From Neoarius graeffei (lineage: Eukaryota; Chordata; Actinopteri; Siluriformes; Ariidae): a DNA stretch of 64,000 bases. This document shows, one piece after another, positions 34,065-45,880 of this stretch (within the stretch, counting starts at the first letter, position 1; each line of letters starts with the position of its first letter). The notes under the pieces were generated by a model, which did not search any database, was not told the DNA's origin, and saw nothing but the letters and a program-made list of their open reading frames with translations. The position numbers and the translations under genes were made by a program. Location of the stretch: positions 38,665,835 to 38,729,834 of the forward strand of contig NC_083589.1 in the NCBI RefSeq assembly GCF_027579695.1, given 5' to 3'.

Positions 34065-35262
34065 TTTTTTTTTTCTAAAAAAGTAAACCAACATTCAGAA
34101 ACTAGGTGGGGAAAAATAAATACACTGTATAATTTCAGTATGATGTAGAACCACCTTTAGCAACAATAATCTGAAGTATGTTGTAAATGTTTACTGTAGG
34201 AATTTATCAGTCACTTTTTGGACATATTTTGGCCCACTCTCTTCTTTACAGCATTGTTTCAGTTCTTTCATGTTGAAGGGCATTCGCTTATGCACAACTC
34301 CTTAAAAATCCAGCTACAGTATCTAAATGGGGTTGAGGTCTGGACTTTGACTTGGCCATTCCAACACCTTTTTTTTTTTTCTTCTTCTTTAGCCATTCAG
34401 ATATCAATTTGCTGGTGTGCTTGGGATCATTGTCCTGTTACATGACTCAATTTCAGCTAGATTAAGCTGCTGGAGAGATGGCCTTCCATTTATCTCGAGA
34501 ATATTCTAGTATAAAGTTAAGTTCATTGTTGTTTTCAATGAACACAATTTTCCCAGATCCTGTGGCTGCAAAATAAGCCCAAATAATTAACCCTCCACCA
34601 CCATGCTTGACAGTTGGTTTGAGGTGATAGAGCTGTGCATGATGACCAGACATCTCCAGTTTGGTCTTATCAGTCCAAAGGATATTGTTCCAGAACTTTT
34701 GTGGTTTGTTCCAATGCAATTTTGCAAACCTAAGTCTAATGCTTAGGTATCCGGGAACCTAATGCTGCCGTATTGTTTGTGGAGAGAAAGGTCTTTTTTT
34801 TTTTTTTCCCTTAAGTCACCCTTCCCTGAAAGTCATAATTGTTCAGTCTTTGTATGATTGTGCTTTCATGAACACTAATGTGCTTCCAGAGAACTGTAGG
34901 TCACATGATGTAACACTTGTTTTTTTTTTTTTAATTATTATTATTTTTTATATATCTCCTGAGCATTAAACGGTTTAACCTTAGACTGAATTTGCTGGGA
35001 TGCCTGTTCCTGGAAAGATTGGCAACTTTACTGAAGGCTCTTCATTTGTAATAAACAGTCTTTCACACTGTAGATTGGTAAATTTTCAAATTGTTTGGTG
35101 ATGGCCTTATAACCCTCTGTAGATTGATGAGCAGGAACAATTGGTTCTCTGAGGTCATAGCTAGTGTCCTTTCTTTTTAGCATGATGTAGATACCAAAAT
35201 CCCAAAAGTACCCCCCCGTGGTTTCTGAACATTCGTTTACTTTTAGGGAAATACATGACTAT
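34065..35262 (-). mobile_element. Ancient Tc1-like element
   Basis: TIR-like AAAGTAAACCAACATTCAGA at ~34080 and its inverse near 35215-35250. The minus strand between 34462 and 34719 reads FWNNILWTDKTKLEMSGHHA and VKHGGGGLIIWAYFAATGSG, a Tc1 transposase catalytic segment with the first Asp. Many lesions. A third Tc1 family in the window. Confidence 0.72.
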
Positions 35263-35411
35263 GTATTGAAATGTGTTGTACAGTTGTTACTTAGGCCCTG
35301 ATTTAAAAAAAAAAAAGGCATAGATTTATAGTAAGGTGTACTTTTTTCCCCATTACTGTAATTTAAGACTGATTCCTGAAATTAATAAAATTAAATTTAA
35401 TCTTTCCAAAC

Positions 35412-35671
35412 GGTGGTGTAGTGGTTAGGACTGTCGCCTCACAGCAAAAAGGTCCTGGGTTCAAGCCCAGTGGCCAGTGAGGGCCTTTCTGTGCGGAGTT
35501 TGCATGTTCTCCCCGTGTCCGTGTGGGTTTCCTCCGGGTGCTCCGGTTTCCCCCACAGTCCAAAGACATGCGGTTAGGTTAACTGGTGACTCTAAATTGA
35601 TTGTAGGTGTGAATGTGAGTGTGAATGGTTGCTTGTTTCTATGTGTCAGTGAGCCCTGTGATAACCTGGCG
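35412..35671 (+). repeat. Left half of a SINE cut by a transposon and an inversion
   Basis: SINE head and body ending at GATAACCTGGCG where element E starts. The missing right half lies inverted at 40965-41082. The SINE's own target duplication TTTCCAAAC is at 35403-35411 here and inverted at 40956-40964. Confidence 0.9.
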
Positions 35672-36332
35672 CAGGGTTTCCCATACATAGACCATTGTGT
35701 GGCGCAGCGCCACACAATCAGACTCGCGATTTTGGAAAAAAAAAAATCCGTTGCGCTAATTAAAAATAACGCAGCCTTCCCGATTCGCCTTCCGACCCCT
35801 TATTTTAAAAAGGTAGCCTACGTTGTGCTCGTGATGAGCTTTATCATAGCCTTCTTGGCTTACAGGAAAGGGACATCCCTGAGTCAGGCTACAAACCAAT
35901 TTTGATGCATACAGTAGCAGCTTGACGCGAGGAACCGGCCTTATTGCATTATCCCGTTTATCCCGCTTCAGCAATCACTTCCCTTATGATAGGGCACTGG
36001 AGTTTTGTTTTTTTTGTTTTTTTCAGGAAGCCACGCAGAATTAAATGTTCTGATAGGGCATGCAGGCTTTGCACCAATTAGGGTAATGCTTTTTCATTAT
36101 TGTTAGTTGCCTTGGTGTTACCTTAAGTGGTTTCTTACATCTAATTATGATATTTTATTATTTTGTTGTTACATTATACTATTTATTTCATTTTAGTATT
36201 GGTTGAGGCAAGTGTTGAGTTCAATATTAAAATAAAAACCTCCAGCTTGTTTTTTGCAATTTATTCCTTGAATGTCAACTAAAGAATGATTGAAAGATTG
36301 CCACCAAAAAGGCAAAAAACTAAGGTAAAAAC

Positions 36333-37423
36333 CAGAGATGCACCGATTGACCGGCTGCTGATCGGAATTGGCCGATTTTCACGTGATCGGCCATGACCGG
36401 CGACCGGCCGGTCAAAATTAAAATATGCCGATTTTCTGCCGATCAGAACGTGTGTATCACATAGAGATGAAAGTGGAAATACTCGTAATTCGCAACTAAA
36501 AAGACTGCAGCTACACTGGCAGCTTGAACATGCTTTCTAGTGCGATTGTGTTGCACTCATGCAGAACAGTGTCAGTCCTGAGCACCTAACGAGCTCCGGC
36601 GCGCGCGCCGTTAACAAAAAAAAAAAAAAATCACTATATTTGGATATCCAGCTTATCCAAAGCTATTGATGTTTGGATATCCAAATATAGTGATTTTTTT
36701 TTTTTTTTTTGTGCCAGATCTTGGATGTGAAAAGAAGAAAACATTTGTGGTTGTGTGAATTTCCCATTACAAGAATTAATACGTTAGCCTATTACCAAAC
36801 ATCTAGTTAGATTTGTACAAAGAGAGAGAGAGAAAAATGTCTTTGTTTGTTTTACAACCTTGGTTGCACTTGATTCCATTGGAAATTACTCTATAAATAC
36901 ACATTTGACAAAGCTGATAGAATGGCTATGGTACAAGTATGACTGGAAATTATTTTTGTATTTTGATACTGAATGAAGAAATTGGTTGTTCTATAAGGCA
37001 TAAGTTTTCAGATCTAAATAGGCTTATGAAAGTGTGTTCCATAGCAGTAGGCAAATAATATATGGGGGGGGGGGGGGGAGTTGTTTTTGTGCCAGATATT
37101 GGATGGGAAAAGAAAAAATGTTTGTGTGAATTTCCTAATTCAGGAATTATGTTAATACCAAACATGAAGAAAGATTTTACAAAGAACAATGTCTTTTTTT
37201 TTTTTTTGTTTTCAACCTTTGAGGTGTTTTTATTACTGAATTTATATACTGAATTTATTACTGAAAATCTGGCAGAATGTTCTATTAAAGAAAAGATAAA
37301 AAGAAAATAGTCTTTGTGTGTGCTGTGAAGTGGTTTGAAAAAATGAAATCAAAATCGGTATCGGCAGGTCACACTCCATGGAAATTGGAATCGGCCCAAA
37401 AAATTGCAATCGGTGCATCTCTA
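36333..37423. mobile_element. hAT-like element inside E
   Basis: TIR CAGAGATGCACCGATTG with inverse CAATCGGTGCATCTCTA, perfect 8 bp duplications GTAAAAAC (36325-36332, 37424-37431). Non-coding. The same insertion is present in copy 2, so it preceded spread of E. Confidence 0.9.
36614..36710. repeat. Perfect hairpin palindrome
   Basis: Arms AATCACTATATTTGGATATC (36629-36650) and the exact inverse (36674-36695), extended by A/T runs, with a 23 bp loop. Repeated in reverse at 42212-42294. Confidence 0.9.
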
Positions 37424-37877
37424 GTAAAAACTAAACTTTAACTTCAATTTTGATGAGTAATTTACATAAATTTAAAAGACAGGTTTTCCACCAACATCAA
37501 GCCCAGCAAACTAATGGCCTGCCCTGTAATGTAAAGTTGGGTCGAGGAATGAAACCAGGCAGGGTTCTGGGAAAAATTGTTTTAGCTGTCTTCTCTTAAA
37601 GAACTTAAAAGAATTTAGATTGAACTGAATAATCTCAAATGCTTCTTGTAGCTTTAAAATAGTCCCAGCAGGTGACTCTGAAGAAAAATACTGTGTGTTT
37701 GAACACCGCCCGCTGTAAACACTTTGCATACACCCCAATGACCGACTCCACTGACTGCCACAACACCACTGTGCACGATTCCCTCATCGGCACAGTGGAG
37801 CACTACAAATTGCTACCTGGTCTGTGGGAAACACTGCAATAGCTACGTTAATTGTTTATATTCATTATGATGATAAT

Positions 37878-38251
37878 GGGGCAGCACGGTGGTGTAGTGG
37901 TTAGCGCTATCGCCTCACAGCAAGAAGGTCTGGGTTCGAGCCCCGTGGCCAGCGAGGGCCTCTCTGTGTGGAGTTTGCATGTTCTCCCCGTGTCCGCGTG
38001 GGTTTCCTCCGGGTGCTCCGGTTTCCCCCACAGTCTAAAGACATGCAGGTTAGGCTAATTGGTGACTCTAAATTGACCGTAGGTGTGAATGTGAGTGTAA
38101 TTGGTTGTCTGTGTCTATGTGTCAGCCCTGTGATGACCTGGCGACTTGTCCAGGGTGTGCCCCGCCTTTCGCCCGTAGTCAGCTGGGATAGGCTCCAGCT
38201 TGCCTGCGACCCTGTAGAACAGGATAAAGCAGCTAGAGATAATGAGATGAG
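37878..38251 (+). repeat. tRNA-headed SINE, + orientation
   Basis: Full-length copy with CATTATG on both sides (37863 and 38252) as probable target duplication. Confidence 0.88.
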
Positions 38252-38270
38252 CATTATGCTAATGTTAGGC

Positions 38271-39450
38271 GGTGTTTCTCGACCAGCGCCATCTCGTGGG
38301 CTGTGAATCCCCCCAGTTGAAGCTAATTTTTACTCGTAGTAGGGTACAATTGCCGGGTTGCACATCACATCACATCCGCCTCATTAAGCTACAGTCACAG
38401 TACAGCTTGCGATGCTTTGCAATGGGTTATCTAGGAAAATGAGGCATTTTGGTGGTGATGCATAGCGATATACACATGAGCTAAAAGTTATGGTCACACA
38501 GTAGGTGAACACTTGACTGTCACGCCTTCATGCGCTTGAGTCTGGCGCAGTTCAAGTGGCTGTGCTTGTTCACGGAGTGCGTTGTGCACGTGCTTGGGAC
38601 CCAGTTGTTATGGGGGAAACACGTGATACTGATTTGAGTGCAGTCAGTACGTGCAGATACAGAAGCTGTTTTCAGAGAGGCTTTGCGAAGCATCCTCACG
38701 GTCACATTTGTTTCTAACCATGTTTATGACTCTGTTTAAATACTCTGCTTTATGATTCTGCTTTTTGTTTTGCAATAAACACTCTTACTGTACTTAGAGC
38801 CATCTACCGCCGTCTAGCTTGTAGTGTCCTGATCCCCAGATCTTTAACCCAGCCACATATAAAAAGTTGTACTCCTTCATGCTCTTCCAGGTTTTCATCT
38901 GTTTTTCTGTAGAGAACGATGTCTACAGCACCAGGTAGTTTGAGATGTCGGGGAACTCAGCGGATGGATAATTTTTCCACTCATAGGAAAAATCCTTTTT
39001 TGTTAGCATGTAAGGATCTATCCCATTGAGTGGTTTCTATATCCACTTCTTTTGAGTGTACTTCTTGGTTTTAATAATTTGCTTGTTTGCTGTCCACAAA
39101 TATGGCAATAAGTTCTTGTGTTAATGGACCAGACTCCACTTTTGGATCATTAATCCCTTTTGGCTGAGAATGCCCTGCATGCATGGTTTTATGTTGGCTT
39201 CTGGCACATCCATACACTTAAATACAATACCTACAAATAAAAAGCTTGCTTTCACTGCATTTATTTAATTCCTGGGCTCCCATCTGTAACAGGGAGTGAT
39301 GTTGCATTCCATTACTATACTTTACAATAGATTATCAGATTCTAATAGAATAGATGAGCCAAAATAATTGGGGATCTTTTTTAATGGGCCCCGACTCATT
39401 ACAAGTATGAATAGGTGGGCCTTAAACTAGAAAAAGTTGAGAACTCCTGA
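38271..39450. mobile_element. hAT-like element (approximate ends)
   Basis: Ends GGTGTTTCTCGACC and GTTGAGAACTCCTGA are inverted relatives. Flanks TGTTAGGC (38263-38270) and TATTAGGC (39451-39458) agree at 7 of 8 positions. The interior 38390-38830 is shared, inverted, with 46790-47150. No ORF recognised. Confidence 0.6.
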
Positions 39451-39691
39451 TATTAGGCATTTTCGTATATGTGAATGAGGCATGAGGTAATTGGATATGA
39501 CAATAACATGCTACGCTCCTCCCCCGATGCGCTGTCTCATGGACTCGTCCTCCAGCAGTAATCAGGCAGTGTGCGTTCATGCGTTTTGAAGGCATGGCTT
39601 TGGAGCGAGGGCGGGATTTTTCGGTTGGACACTTTCAAAATCTAGCTTACTCTTTCTGGTTTCGCCAAAATGGATCTCCTAGGCTCCATTG

Positions 39692-40126
39692 GAGTGCTGT
39701 GGTCATGTGGTTTGAGATGGGTAAACAAACACCTACACCCCTCATGTGTTTGTATGGATTACCTGTATTCATGAACTACAAAGTCTGAGATGTAGCTCAA
39801 AATGGTATGTTATTGCACAGCTTATGGCTGCAATAACAATTCAACTGATAGTAGTCCATCATTTCATTCTTTTCCGAGTGATAAAAGACATCAGGAGGTA
39901 AGAAATTATTAAATTTACAAACGAATTCACATTGTTTAGTAGTTGTGTGTGCTGTAGCATTGAAACCTTCGGTGCTCACACTTTGAAAGATGATTTGCAA
40001 TAGTAATCGTGGACAGGTCATTTTATCGAGTTTCTTTGTCCAAATTGTATCACTGAATGCACTAGTAGAGCTATTAGCGACCGCCATTTTGGATTTGTGT
40101 TTACCCATTTCAGATCACGTGACCTT
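39692..40126 (+). mobile_element. Inverted-repeat element with a THAP exon
   Basis: GGTCATGTGGTTTGAGATGG at 39694 mirrors CCATTTCAGATCACGTGACC ending at 40124, enclosing a THAP-type exon. Target duplication not resolved. Confidence 0.5.
39802..39897 (+). pseudogene. THAP-domain first exon (second type)
   Basis: 32 codons beginning MVCYCTAYGCNNNST, then FHSFPSDKRHQE, ending exactly at a GTAAGA donor (39898). C-x4-C spacing and the HxFP motif match the N-terminal half of a THAP zinc finger. The second half (CxxH) would be on a later exon, not found. It differs from the Kolobok-like THAP copies, so it comes from another transposon or a THAP gene remnant. Confidence 0.6.
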
Positions 40127-40199
40127 GAGGTCTATTTCCTGCCTTGCCTTGAAGGCAGTGCAGGAAGCTGTCCGAGTGTAAGAATCAATACAGAATTTT

Positions 40200-40955
40200 G
40201 TTTATCAAACAAATGATATTACAGCAATGTGGTAAGCTGCACAGGTCAAAATCGGGTCTTGCACATGCACTCCTAAATCCAAACTCAACCAGTATTTTTA
40301 CAAAAATAAAGAGCAAAAGTGAGCAAAGCACTCACACTGTATAGAACCCTGAAAGACACAACCTTTTTGAAAGAGAAATGCTATACTCTTATGATGTTCT
40401 GTGTTAAGCTCGAGTGTGATGTAGGTCGTATCTGACCTGGTGTTTAAAAACTTCTGCCAATTCAAGCCCAACAGCTCTGACTGTGAATTATTATTACACG
40501 ACTGCCAGGGTGACTCACAGCAGTTCATGAATATCATGTTTTAGAGAACCATTTTTAACAAACCAATTCTACACACTACAGCTTTATTTTTGCTTAGGCA
40601 AAATACCATCCACATGACGTTGGGGGTTTGTTCAAATGTCAAACACTGGCGCTCTGACAGTGGTAGGATTTGAACTCCCATCCTTTCAGTCACTATAACT
40701 CCAAACATCTGCTTTCTGGCTTGCTCACCACTTTGAATAATTTCACAACATTATCAGAGATTTTTACAGGGGTACTAATGTTGGAAAGCCAGGTTAAACT
40801 CTAGATATACTGTACTACATACAGCATTTGGGAATTTAAATGATGTCATGAAAATTGATCAACCAATGTAAAGAACAAAATGGTACAGAATGGAATAATG
40901 CATAAGGAAGTTTGTAAAAAGATTCTAACTTTTTTTTTTTTTTTTTTTTTTTTTA
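40200..40955. other. Intron DNA with poly-T run
   Basis: No gene seen. A T-run (40931-40953) abuts the inverted SINE half and is where that SINE originally inserted. Confidence 0.4.
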
Positions 40956-40964
40956 GTTTGGAAA

Positions 40965-41082
40965 AATTCCATCCATCCATTATCTGTAGCTGCTTATCCT
41001 GTTCTACAGGGTCGCAGGCAAGCTGGAGCTTATCCCAGCTGACTACGGTCAAGAGGTGGGGTACACCCTGGACAAGTCGCCA
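40965..41082 (-). repeat. Right half of the split SINE, inverted
   Basis: Tail and body end, starting (reverse complement) at TGGCGACTTGTCC, which is the exact continuation of the half ending at 35671. Confidence 0.9.
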
Positions 41083-41495
41083 CAGTGTTTCCCACAGACC
41101 AGGTAGCAATTTGTGATGCTCCACTGTGCCAATGAGGGAATCGTGCGCGGTGGTGTTGTGGCGGTCGGTGGAGTCGGTTATTGGGGTGTATGCCAAGTGT
41201 TTACAGCGGGCGGTGTTCAAACACACAGTATTTTTCTTCAGAGTCACCTGCTGGGACTATTTTAAAGCTATAAGAAGCATTTGAGATTATTCAGTTCAAT
41301 CTAAATTCTTTTAAGTTCTTTAAGAGAAGACAGCTAAAACAATTTTTCCCAGAACCCTGCCTGGTTTCATTCCTCGACCCAACTTTACATTACAGGGCAG
41401 GCCATTAGTTTGCTGGGCTTGATGTTGGTGGAAAACCTGTCTTTTAAATTTATGAAAATTACTCACCAAAATTGAAGTTAAAGTTTAGTTTTTAC

Positions 41496-43785
41496 TAGAG
41501 ATGCACCGATTGCAATTTTTTGGGCCGATTCCGATTTTCCATGGAGTGTGACCTGCCGATACCGATTTTGGCCGATTCCGATTTCATTTTTTCAAACCAC
41601 TTCACAGCACACACAAAGACTATTTTCTTTTTATCTTTTCTTTAATAGAACATTCTGCCAGATTTTCAGTAATAAATTCAGTATATAATTCAGTAATAAA
41701 AACACCTCAAAGGTTGAAAACAAACAAAAAGACATTGTTCTTTGTAAAATCTTTCTTCATGTTTGGTATTAACATAATTCCTGAAATAGGAAATTCACAC
41801 AAACATTTTTTCTTTTCCCATCCAATATCTGGCACAAAAACAACTCCCCCCCCCCCCCATATATTATTTGCCTACTGCTATGGAACACACTTTCATAAGC
41901 CTATTTAGATCTGAAAACTTATGCCTTATAGAACAACCCATTTCTTCATTCAGTATCAAAATACAAAAATAATTTCCAGTCGTACTTGTACCATAGCCAT
42001 TCTATCAGCTTTGTCAAATGTGTATTTATAGAGTAATTTCCAATGGAATCAAGTGCAACCAAGGTTGTAAAACAAACAAAGACATTTTTCTCTCTCTCTC
42101 TTTGTACAAATCTAACTAGATGTTTGGTAATAGGCTAACGTATTAATTCCTGTAATGGGAAATTCACACAACCACAAACGTTTTCTTCTTTTCACATCCA
42201 AGATCTGGCACAAAAAAAAATCACTATATTTGGATATCCAAACATCAATAGCTTTGGATAAGCTGGATATCCAAATATAGTGATTTTTTTTTTTGTTGTT
42301 GTTGTTAATGGCGCGCGCGCGCCGGAGCTCGTTAGGCTGGGCATACACTGTGCGATTTTTGGCCCGATTTTGACACGATTTTCACTCGTGCGACTATTTT
42401 GGAGATCGGGCCGATTTTTGGCTCAATCGTGCGTCTCGGGTCGTGTAATATACATGGGGTAACGACAAGCGATTAACACCTCACGACCTCTTCCCGCTCG
42501 ATCGGATGAAAATCAAACATGTTTGAAATCCTGGTCGCCCCTCGTGAGGCTATCGCACTGTTGAAGCAGTGTCACGAGCCGATTTACCTCAACCTGTCAC
42601 ACTACACATGCGCGAACACAGATACGGAAGAGAAAACAAACCCTGAGCAGCACTTCCGGTCTCCTCTTCTTCACGTAGATGGGATTTATGGCTCTTTGAT
42701 GGGATCTGCATCTTTGTGATCCGTTCTTTGAAAAGAGCCGTTCAAAAGACTGGCTCGTTTGGCTCTTTTTTAAAAATATTTATTCAGTTTTAAGAAGACA
42801 GCGTCTAAAGAAGCCGGATCCCTCTGCTTAGACAGTGACATCAATATTTCTGGACATACCTTTTATATAAAGCAACCTAGACTTACATTATTGTAACCCC
42901 TAAACGCTCATAAATAACCATTAAAAAACAATGAGGGCTTCAATGAATGTCCATGCAGAACGGCTTTTCTGTAAAAAAAAAAAAAAAAGAACCCACTCAA
43001 GAACATAGTTATCAGAACGCAAGAATATTTTATAGAAAAACACTTGTTTTACAAAACTATTTAAGTCTGAGATACAAAACAGATAAATAAAATACACAAA
43101 AATGGAACAAACAAAATGACGATAGAATAAATTAAATGAACGTCCGTGCAAAGTAGTTTTCCCACAATATTATCATTAATATCACACAACATTATAAACT
43201 ATCTGAAACACAGTACAGAAAAAGAACGACAGAAAGAACGGCTCCCCCAGCTCGAGACTCGGTTCTCATCGTTCATGCCTAGGAGCCGTTCAAAAGAATC
43301 GGTTCGTTCGCGAACGTCACAACACTATATCACGTTGCAGTTCCGGATACAAGAATCTGGAAGTATGGAAGTACAGTGTGAGCAGTCAGATCGCATCCGA
43401 GCATCGGATCGTATAGTGTGAGAACAGGAATCATAATCTGCGTGCTGTTTACCCCTGCGATTCACTCGTACAGTGTGAGCAGCAGCTAAATACCGCGATT
43501 GAAAAAATCGCACAGTGTCTGCCCAGCCTTAGGCGTGCAGGACTGACACTGTTCTGCGCAAGCGCAACACAATCGCACTAGAAAGCATGTTGAAGCTGCC
43601 AGTGTAGCTGCAGTCTTTTCAGTTGCGAATTACGAGTATTTCCACTTTCATCTCTATGTGATACACACGTTCTGATCGGCAGAAAATCGGCATATTTTAA
43701 TTTTGACCGGCCGGTCGCCGGTCATGGCCAATCACGTGAAAATCGGCCGATTCCGATCAGCAGCCGGTCAATCGGTGCATCTCTG
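41496..43785. mobile_element. hAT-like element inside E copy 2
   Basis: Same hAT insertion as at 36333-37423, flanked by GTTTTTAC (41488-41495, 43786-43793), the complement of GTAAAAAC. Enlarged by the nested TTA element. Confidence 0.9.
42335..43528. mobile_element. PIF/Harbinger-like MITE (1194 bp)
   Basis: TIR GGCTGGGCATACACTGTGCG with inverse CGCACAGTGTCTGCCCAGCC, target duplication TTA (42332-42334, 43529-43531). The empty site GCTCGTTAGG is preserved in E copy 1, confirming the boundaries. Subterminal CAGTGTGAGCAG repeats near 43374 and 43470. No transposase. Confidence 0.9.
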
Positions 43786-43930
43786 GTTTTTACCTTAGTT
43801 TTTTGCCTTTTTGGTGGCAATCTTTCAATCATTCTTTAATTGACATTCAAGGAATAAATTGCAAAAAACAAGCTGGAGGTTTTTATTTTAAATATTGAAC
43901 TCAACACTTGCCTCAACCAATACTAAAATG

Positions 43931-44128
43931 AAACTAGACAGGGACACTCTAACGAGTGCAAACCCCGCCTTTTCCCTATTAAAATACATTGGGCGAAAAT
44001 TTCGAAGTTCTGCCATGACCTTGACCTTTGACCTCCAAAATTTAATGGTTTCCTTCCTGGGTGATTGGCAACACGTACAAAATTTGGTCCAAATCGATCC
44101 ATTGGTTCTTGAGATATCTTGCAGACAC

Positions 44129-44161
<33 letters not shown>

Positions 44162-44228
44162 TACACACACACACACACAGACTGACGCAGGTGAAAATAA
44201 TAACCCCTCCGACTACTGTCGGCGGGGT
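43931..44228. repeat. Retroelement 3' fragment with GACA microsatellite
   Basis: Absent from the matching place in E copy 1. Contains TGACCTTGACCTTTGACCTC and a GACA run (44129-44160) followed by CA repeats. It resembles RTE-type fish repeats; class inferred. Confidence 0.55.
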
Positions 44229-44964
44229 TAATAAATAGTATAATGTAACAACAAAATAATAAAATATCATAATTAGATGTAAGAAACCACTTAAGGTAAC
44301 ACCAAGGCAACTAACAATAATGAAAAAGCATTACCCTAATTGGTGCAAAGCCTGCATGCCCTATCAGAACATTTAATTCTGCGTGGCTTCCTGAAAAAAA
44401 ACTCCAGTGCCCTATCGTAAGGGAAGTGATTGCTGAAGCGGGATAAACGGGATAATGCAATAAGGCCGGTTCCTCGCGTCAAGCTGCTACTGTACTGTAT
44501 GCATCAAAATTGGTTTATAGCCTGATTCAGGGATGTCCGTTTCATGTAAGCCAAGAAGGCTATGATAAAGCTCATCACGAGCATGACGTAGGCTACCTTT
44601 TTAAAATAAGGGGTCGGAAGGCGAATCGGGAAGGCTGCGTTATTTTTAATTAGCGCAACGGATTTTTTTTTTTCCAAAATCGCGAGTCTGATTGTGTGGC
44701 GCTGTACCACACAATGGTCTATGTATGGGAAACCCTGTATTGTTAGTACTCACAGCTGTACTAGCTCACTAGCTTTAGCAGTATATCTGCAATATATTTG
44801 AAGACTCTGGTTATGTGCAATGAGTGCACTGGCAGAATGTGTGCAGGCAGGCAGGCTGTCCAATCATTTCATTCAGACTGAGTACTGCTGCCACAGGTGT
44901 CTTTATTTTATTTTTTTGCTTTTTAATATTGGGTTATTTGACTTGTTGATTGCTCTCAGAATAT

Positions 44965-45335
44965 CTCATCTCATCGTCTCTAGCCGCTTTATCCTGTTCT
45001 ACAGGGTCGCAGGCAAGCTGGAGCCTATCCCAGCTGACTACGGGCGAAAGGCGGGGTACACCCTGGACAAGTCACCAGGTCATCACAGGGCTGACACATA
45101 GACACAGACAACCATTCACACACATTCACACCTACGGTCAGTTTAGAGTCACCAGTTAACCTAACCTGCATGTCTTTGGACTGTGGGGGAAACCGGAGCA
45201 CCCGGAGGAAACCCACGTGGACACGGGGAGAACATGCAAACTCCACACAGAAAGGCCCTCGCTGGCCACGGGGCTCGAACCCGGACCTTCTTGCTGTGAG
45301 GCGACAGCGTTAACCACTACACCACCGTGCCGCCC
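44965..45335 (-). repeat. tRNA-headed SINE, - orientation
   Basis: Target duplication CTCTCAGAATAT at 44953-44964 and 45336-45347. Confidence 0.93.
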
Positions 45336-45347
45336 CTCTCAGAATAT

Positions 45348-45880
45348 AAAGAGAATTTTTCAAGAAATATAACAAAAATGCTTCTGAAAAAATGACCTGC
45401 CTTGCCTTTCATGGATGAAATGTCTGAATTCTGTATACACTCAGCACAGTGTTTCATTCTATGGGTGAAAAAATTACTTCTGTCTCACACCATGTACTAA
45501 TATCACTTCTGTAGCAGCCAAGATTGTTTTGCCAAAGTTATTACTGCAGCATTGTTCAAAGCTGAGAAGATGCGAGGGAGGAGGCCATTTGAGGGGGTTC
45601 GTTTTGAATTGATATTTTTACTTTTGCTGAAGAGTGCAAATAATTCTGGAGATGATTGTGCATGATATACCTTCTGATACATTGCAACACATAAAGCAAA
45701 AGTAGGGATATTGAGGGGAAATTGGTGTGACCAGTTGGTTGTTTTCCAATAGCGAAATACGACACTCTTCAACGGCAGCTTGAAAAGTTACCAACAGTGG
45801 TTCTAAAAGATTCAGCTTCATAACTTGGTTTTGAGTACACTTCTAATGTATTTTTTTTTTTTTTACTGGATGTGTTTTTC
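45348..45880. other. Intron 1 end
   Basis: Intronic sequence up to the exon 2 acceptor, ending in a T-rich polypyrimidine region. Minus-strand ORFs here show no family similarity I can name. Confidence 0.5.

Follow-up and report, generated by a model that had tools for sequence, protein, structure and literature searches.

A 3.2 kb inversion flanked by two inverted transposon copies in ppm1h intron 1 of Neoarius graeffei, with swapped target duplications and a split SINE

Inversions with swapped target duplications between inverted transposon copies are already known in Drosophila, according to the sections of PMC2775673 that are drawn on here. For the Galileo inversions, those sections set a choice between ectopic recombination, which leads to chimeric copies, and insertion of a hybrid element formed across sister chromatids, which leads to identical ones. 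Both models leave exchanged duplications, and it was a chimera test which settled the Galileo case in Drosophila (same sections of PMC2775673). Swapped target duplications are not in themselves proof of recombination. A fish-directed literature search gave no fish case by title among the papers listed, which is no proof of its absence in print. The locus presented here lies in a 64 kb window of contig NC_083589.1 (the whole stretch analysed, to which all coordinates refer unless a position in E is named) and is a known kind of event, well preserved.

Structure of the locus and its flanks

The first-pass annotation of the window had placed the structure in ppm1h intron 1, and the flanking exons bear this out. 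Exon 1, which matches solved PPM1H chains (E 1.8e-24), ends at about 25172, with its GTAAGT donor beginning at about 25173, while the match to exon 2 (E 3.4e-12) has its acceptor ending at about 45882 and the exon starting at about 45883. The whole structure is contained in this intron of 20.7 kb, and neither flanking exon is touched. Rfam gave no match in 34801-45600, nor did a tRNA scan of the window run with the bacterial code. Elsewhere in the window, two long open frames (374-1165 on the plus strand and 1352-2296 on the minus strand) lie inverted, 186 bases apart, and encode similar proteins which we take to be transposase-like, of the Tc1 kind. The features of the locus are as follows.

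35403-35411, plus strand: left target duplication of the SINE, TTTCCAAAC, its only plus-strand occurrence in the window
35412-35671, plus strand: left part of the split SINE, ending in TGGCG; aligns to the window's other SINE copies and abuts E exactly
35672-37836, plus strand: transposon copy E (CAGGGTTTCCC...GGGAAACACTG), 2165 bp, from self-comparison and global alignment; holds a nested element of ~1.1 kb
37837-41082, unstranded: inverted segment, 3246 bp; starts with CAATA (reverse of TATTG) and ends with CGCCA (reverse of TGGCG)
40956-40964, minus strand: right target duplication of the SINE, inverted, GTTTGGAAA, sole occurrence in the window
40965-41082, minus strand (read from 41082 down to 40965): right part of the split SINE, inverted, beginning with TGGCGACTTG; from self-comparison and re-inversion
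41083-44737, minus strand: transposon copy E', inverted relative to E, 3655 bp, with two private inserts
42332-43531, unstranded: private insert of E' including its TTA flanks, ends GGCTGGGC...GCCCAGCC, ~1.2 kb; a 1197-base gap in E
43934-44231, unstranded: private insert of E', 298 bases, missing from E, where it is a gap
44738-44742, plus strand: TATTG, partner of CAATA at 37837-37841

Self-comparison of the region resolves E and E' into inverted copies made up of three main blocks, as had been claimed, and their global alignment gives 98.0% identity, with 42 substitutions (32 of them transitions) in 2136 shared columns. The end of E' had been put at 44736, which is one base short; with the actual end at 44737, TATTG falls at 44738-44742. 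The ends of the TTA-flanked insert of E' presumably resemble those of PIF/Harbinger elements, and this insert may itself contain another one. The nested element (36325-37431 in E) has the 8 bp GTAAAAAC at both sides. It is present in E, E' and many relatives, and missing in some relatives (L060, L062, L065 and L066, about 1.1 kb): a composite which seems to have spread as one unit. Both copies also contain an inverted repeat with a 23-base loop, located at 36616-36708 in E (arms of 35 bases, 100% identical) and at 42209-42295 in E' (32 bases, 97%), which could form a hairpin and break. A run of G measures 15 bases in E (37064-37078) and 13 in E' (41846-41858), and is shorter and interrupted in most of the 15 aligned relatives.

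The two copies do not have matching flanks of their own: E lies between TGGCG and CAATA, and E' between CGCCA and TATTG, so that all five bases differ in each case. When the flanks are paired between the copies, TGGCG matches TGGCG and TATTG matches TATTG, in line with the first-pass annotation; of the lengths from 4 to 8, only exactly 5 bp gives a match. For random site pairs in the window, 5-mers match at a rate of 0.00135, or ~2e-6 for both pairs. The SINE is marked in the same way. Within the 64 kb, TTTCCAAAC is confined to 35403 and its reverse complement to 40956, just as reported for this 9 bp duplication. The in silico re-inversion of 37837-41082 that the annotation had proposed brings TGGCGACTTG directly after E and restores the 9-bp duplication, with the two SINE parts meeting through TGGCG. 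When these parts are rejoined with one TGGCG, alignments of the SINE that span the junction are obtained at 20 other places in the window, where 14 of the 17 nearly full SINEs carry their own duplication of at least 8 bp.

These observations had been counted as three independent marks. All of them are present, but they are not fully independent and mark only two sites: because TGGCG sits inside the SINE, the TGGCG match, the continuity of the SINE and the SINE duplication form the mark of one site. TATTG is a separate mark, for the E' site. There is strong support for a flip of the 3.2 kb with respect to these two insertion sites.

E and E' within their transposon family

A family for comparison was obtained by searching the first 529 bases of E against the 2.34 Gb host genome (38 contigs). 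It comprises at least 38 other copies among the 40 of 1336 candidates that were scored. The 46 copies which were retrieved consist of the 26 listed over the whole 529-base query, and of 20 of the 87 places sharing the left-end form. In 38 of the 46, both ends lie within the retrieved stretch, the matching right end being taken where several were possible. Their own exact duplication is found in 33 of these 38 (5 bp in 32, 6 bp in one), while three differ by one base and two (L030 and L047, with 2 and 3 mismatches) have none, the latter being possible further rearranged copies. Members of the family thus create duplications of 5 bp and retain them in most cases, and E and E' depart from this at all five bases. 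An 8-bp target duplication is typical of the hAT superfamily, in which a group with 5 bp also exists; the duplication lengths given above differ from the 8-bp form. No hAT transposase or other Pfam family was found at E 0.1 in 5 open frames of the region.

Over the same columns, none of the 46 copies is as close to E or to E' as these two are to each other, and this also holds in 8 of 10 further short stretches, with 2 ties. Compared with 15 two-ended relatives (three with large inserts were left out), E has 22 private substitutions and E' has 15, and a further 11 are common to both copies, each of the 11 occurring in at most one relative. Distances were calculated for a set of 21 copies, made up of E, E', 14 of the 15 two-ended relatives, L081 and 4 of the 20 copies with the left-end form (L009 and L010 were dropped as partial). 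Of the 210 pairs, E/E' is the closest, at 2.0% vs 2.4% for the next one, or 1.05% vs 1.7% when CpG columns are removed; the 171 pairs among the other 19 copies average 3.0%. This closeness varies along the element. None of the 171 pairs is as close as E/E' in the first 660 bases or in the next 760, whereas the number is 15 for 1420-1752 and 64 for the last 413 bp, where E and E' are no closer than unrelated copies. In a tree of 17 sequences, E and E' group with a support of 99 overall and 97 for the middle part, while the smallest group holding both also includes L010 for the left part (support 51) and L018 for the right part (71).

The grouping is accompanied by a substitution that is specific to the two copies. 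The 34-base stretch around E position 1049 has 323 places in the genome within one mismatch, and its C form is exact at E and E'; the one-mismatch places listed, which are part of 321, all carry A. In a 20-base context, 1049C is present in E and E' alone in 2.34 Gb, and it is the sole exclusive sister mark that was confirmed. The combination 775G+779G, in a 29-base context, is likewise exact in these two copies alone, and is found with one further change at one other place, L081, which is a copy 3.8 to 4.5% away. The sister marks are all inside the nested element (E positions 662-1752), and no exclusive mark was found in the E core. Several candidates were discarded on the way. Taken singly, 775G and 779G each occur elsewhere (7/10 places), 1223T is found at four places, and 2091A is not exclusive either. 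A common absence of 21 bases near the left end has a form present at 87 places within two mismatches; in the same surroundings, among 23 aligned sequences, L009 alone shares it with E and E'.

By these comparisons, E and E' are sister copies: they have a history in common that sets them apart from the other copies, at least in the left and nested parts, which make up most of their length. Either one copy came from the other, or conversion made them alike. This sister relation is what is new here, and it argues against two unrelated insertions.

Origin of the inversion

The reading which we favour, with a probability that we judge to be roughly 0.58, is that a local hop (or conversion) followed by a crossover between the inverted copies made the inversion. 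A SINE would have been resident in ppm1h intron 1, and the insertion of E into this SINE would have duplicated TGGCG. A daughter copy, E', would then have landed 3.2 kb off at TATTG in the opposite orientation, either by a local hop of E or as a second insertion later homogenised by gene conversion. A crossover between E and E' would have flipped the intervening 3246 bp and exchanged the inner flanks, leaving each copy with half of each duplication. The order of these steps, and homologous crossover as the cause of the flip, are what we infer from the arrangement. The copies are long (2.1 kb) compared with the 3.2 kb spacer, and both duplications are exact. For human inversions, the ratio of repeat length to inversion length goes with inversion frequency, according to the part of PMC6748972 used here. 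The last 413 bp hold 12 of the 42 differences between E and E', a larger share than in any of the 171 other pairs (binomial P 0.034; 7 of 21 without CpG columns, P 0.049), with the regions having been picked after earlier distance tables were seen. This excess is a weak hint in the alignment, as if the right end might have escaped a conversion tract shared by the rest. No clear tract was detected between the copies, the longest stretch free of differences being 210 bases (simulated mean 181, P 0.21). Nor is chimerism visible in E or E', whose parents would be near-identical sisters and for which no third parent tells the halves apart.

Recombination between inverted copies, as proposed by the first-pass annotation, is upheld in part: the flip stands, while crossover is the favoured but not the sole reading, because a hybrid element derived from one element would on insertion leave the flanks seen here, with the duplications swapped likewise. 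In this model, transposase would act after replication, joining the left end of E from one chromatid to its right end from the sister and inserting the pair at TATTG, 3.2 kb away; a second copy, the inversion and the two swapped duplications would all arise in this single event. It accounts for the sister relation and the nearness of the copies without a separate hop, which counts against the crossover, and it needs one event, not two. The model described in the available sections of PMC2775673 yields exactly the observed flanks, with the ends derived by hand: if the right end goes to the target's spacer side, the result is A-TGGCG-E-TATTG(rev)-spacer inverted-TGGCG(rev)-E'-TATTG-D, the order observed. 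Exchanged duplications without deletion, as expected of same-site ends, are found at both sites. A single source element is also predicted, in agreement with E/E' being the closest pair of the 21 copies, with the shared 1049C and with 775G+779G, but a local hop or conversion gives the sister relation equally well. The last 413 bp are without sister signal, and an uneven divergence, with 64 of 171 other pairs as close or closer there, is not predicted by a hybrid insertion. The family is also without a demonstrated transposase source, and ordinary hops are considered far more frequent than such insertions. In favour of an event of this sort, the hAT elements Ac/Ds provide documented cases of alternative transposition (PMC8225341, in the part consulted). 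We consider a hybrid insertion to be a doubtful explanation, though one with an appreciable minority probability. Only tentatively could the locus then be read as a naturally occurring one-step inversion in a vertebrate, due to hybrid insertion of a cut-and-paste transposon between sister chromatids. If this were true, it would be recognisable by its exclusive sister copies together with the swapped duplications.

Two further explanations carry little weight compared with the local hop and crossover. Independent insertions of unrelated family members, followed by a crossover without homogenisation, are made possible by the size of the family (at least 38 other copies among 40 of 1336 candidates scored), and the last 413 bp are indeed as far apart as in unrelated copies. 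The exclusive substitution and the absence of any equally close pair among 171 in the first 660 and next 760 bases speak against this course, which is disfavoured and very improbable. An assembler crossing between the inverted repeats, and so flipping the spacer, would leave the same swapped flanks, but the window is free of N, the assembly consists of 38 contigs of which those checked span 57 to 131 Mb, and the 1.5 kb of private inserts in E' plus its 42 substitutions relative to E are enough to anchor long reads. In addition, the spacer piece 40200-40940 is matched in full at one place in the genome (of the 40 matches scored, the remaining 39 do not exceed 135 bases, at 72 to 87%), and the assembly showed no second copy of this piece in uninverted form. 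An assembly error is thus unlikely.

Comparison with known systems

The locus is a compact record of a transposon-linked inversion, in which the two insertion targets are preserved together with an older repeat that was split, and a large family is at hand for comparison. The check for exclusive sister copies adds a test which can be run on an assembly. Compared with human inversions between inverted repeats, as presented in the part of PMC6748972 used here, the repeats are similarly long relative to the inverted stretch, whereas the human cases are genotyped polymorphisms and ours is seen in a single assembly. As in the alternative transposition of maize Ac/Ds (PMC8225341, same part), an inversion has element copies at both ends and junction duplications that match. 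In the reversed-ends form described there, the stretch between the elements is lost and one new duplication is made; here there are two duplications, and no spacer loss is seen between the two sites. Reversed-ends transposition therefore fits badly, since the stretch between the elements would be lost. The closest likeness is to the Galileo inversions of Drosophila buzzatii (such as 2z3), which, in the sections of PMC2775673 drawn on, also have inverted copies of one transposon at both breakpoints, exchanged target duplications and later insertions nested in the copies. The present case differs from them in its scale (3.2 kb inside a single intron, as against a cytological inversion), in its duplications (5-bp instead of 7-bp), in the two copies being sisters without visible chimerism, and in the split SINE, which provides an extra mark.
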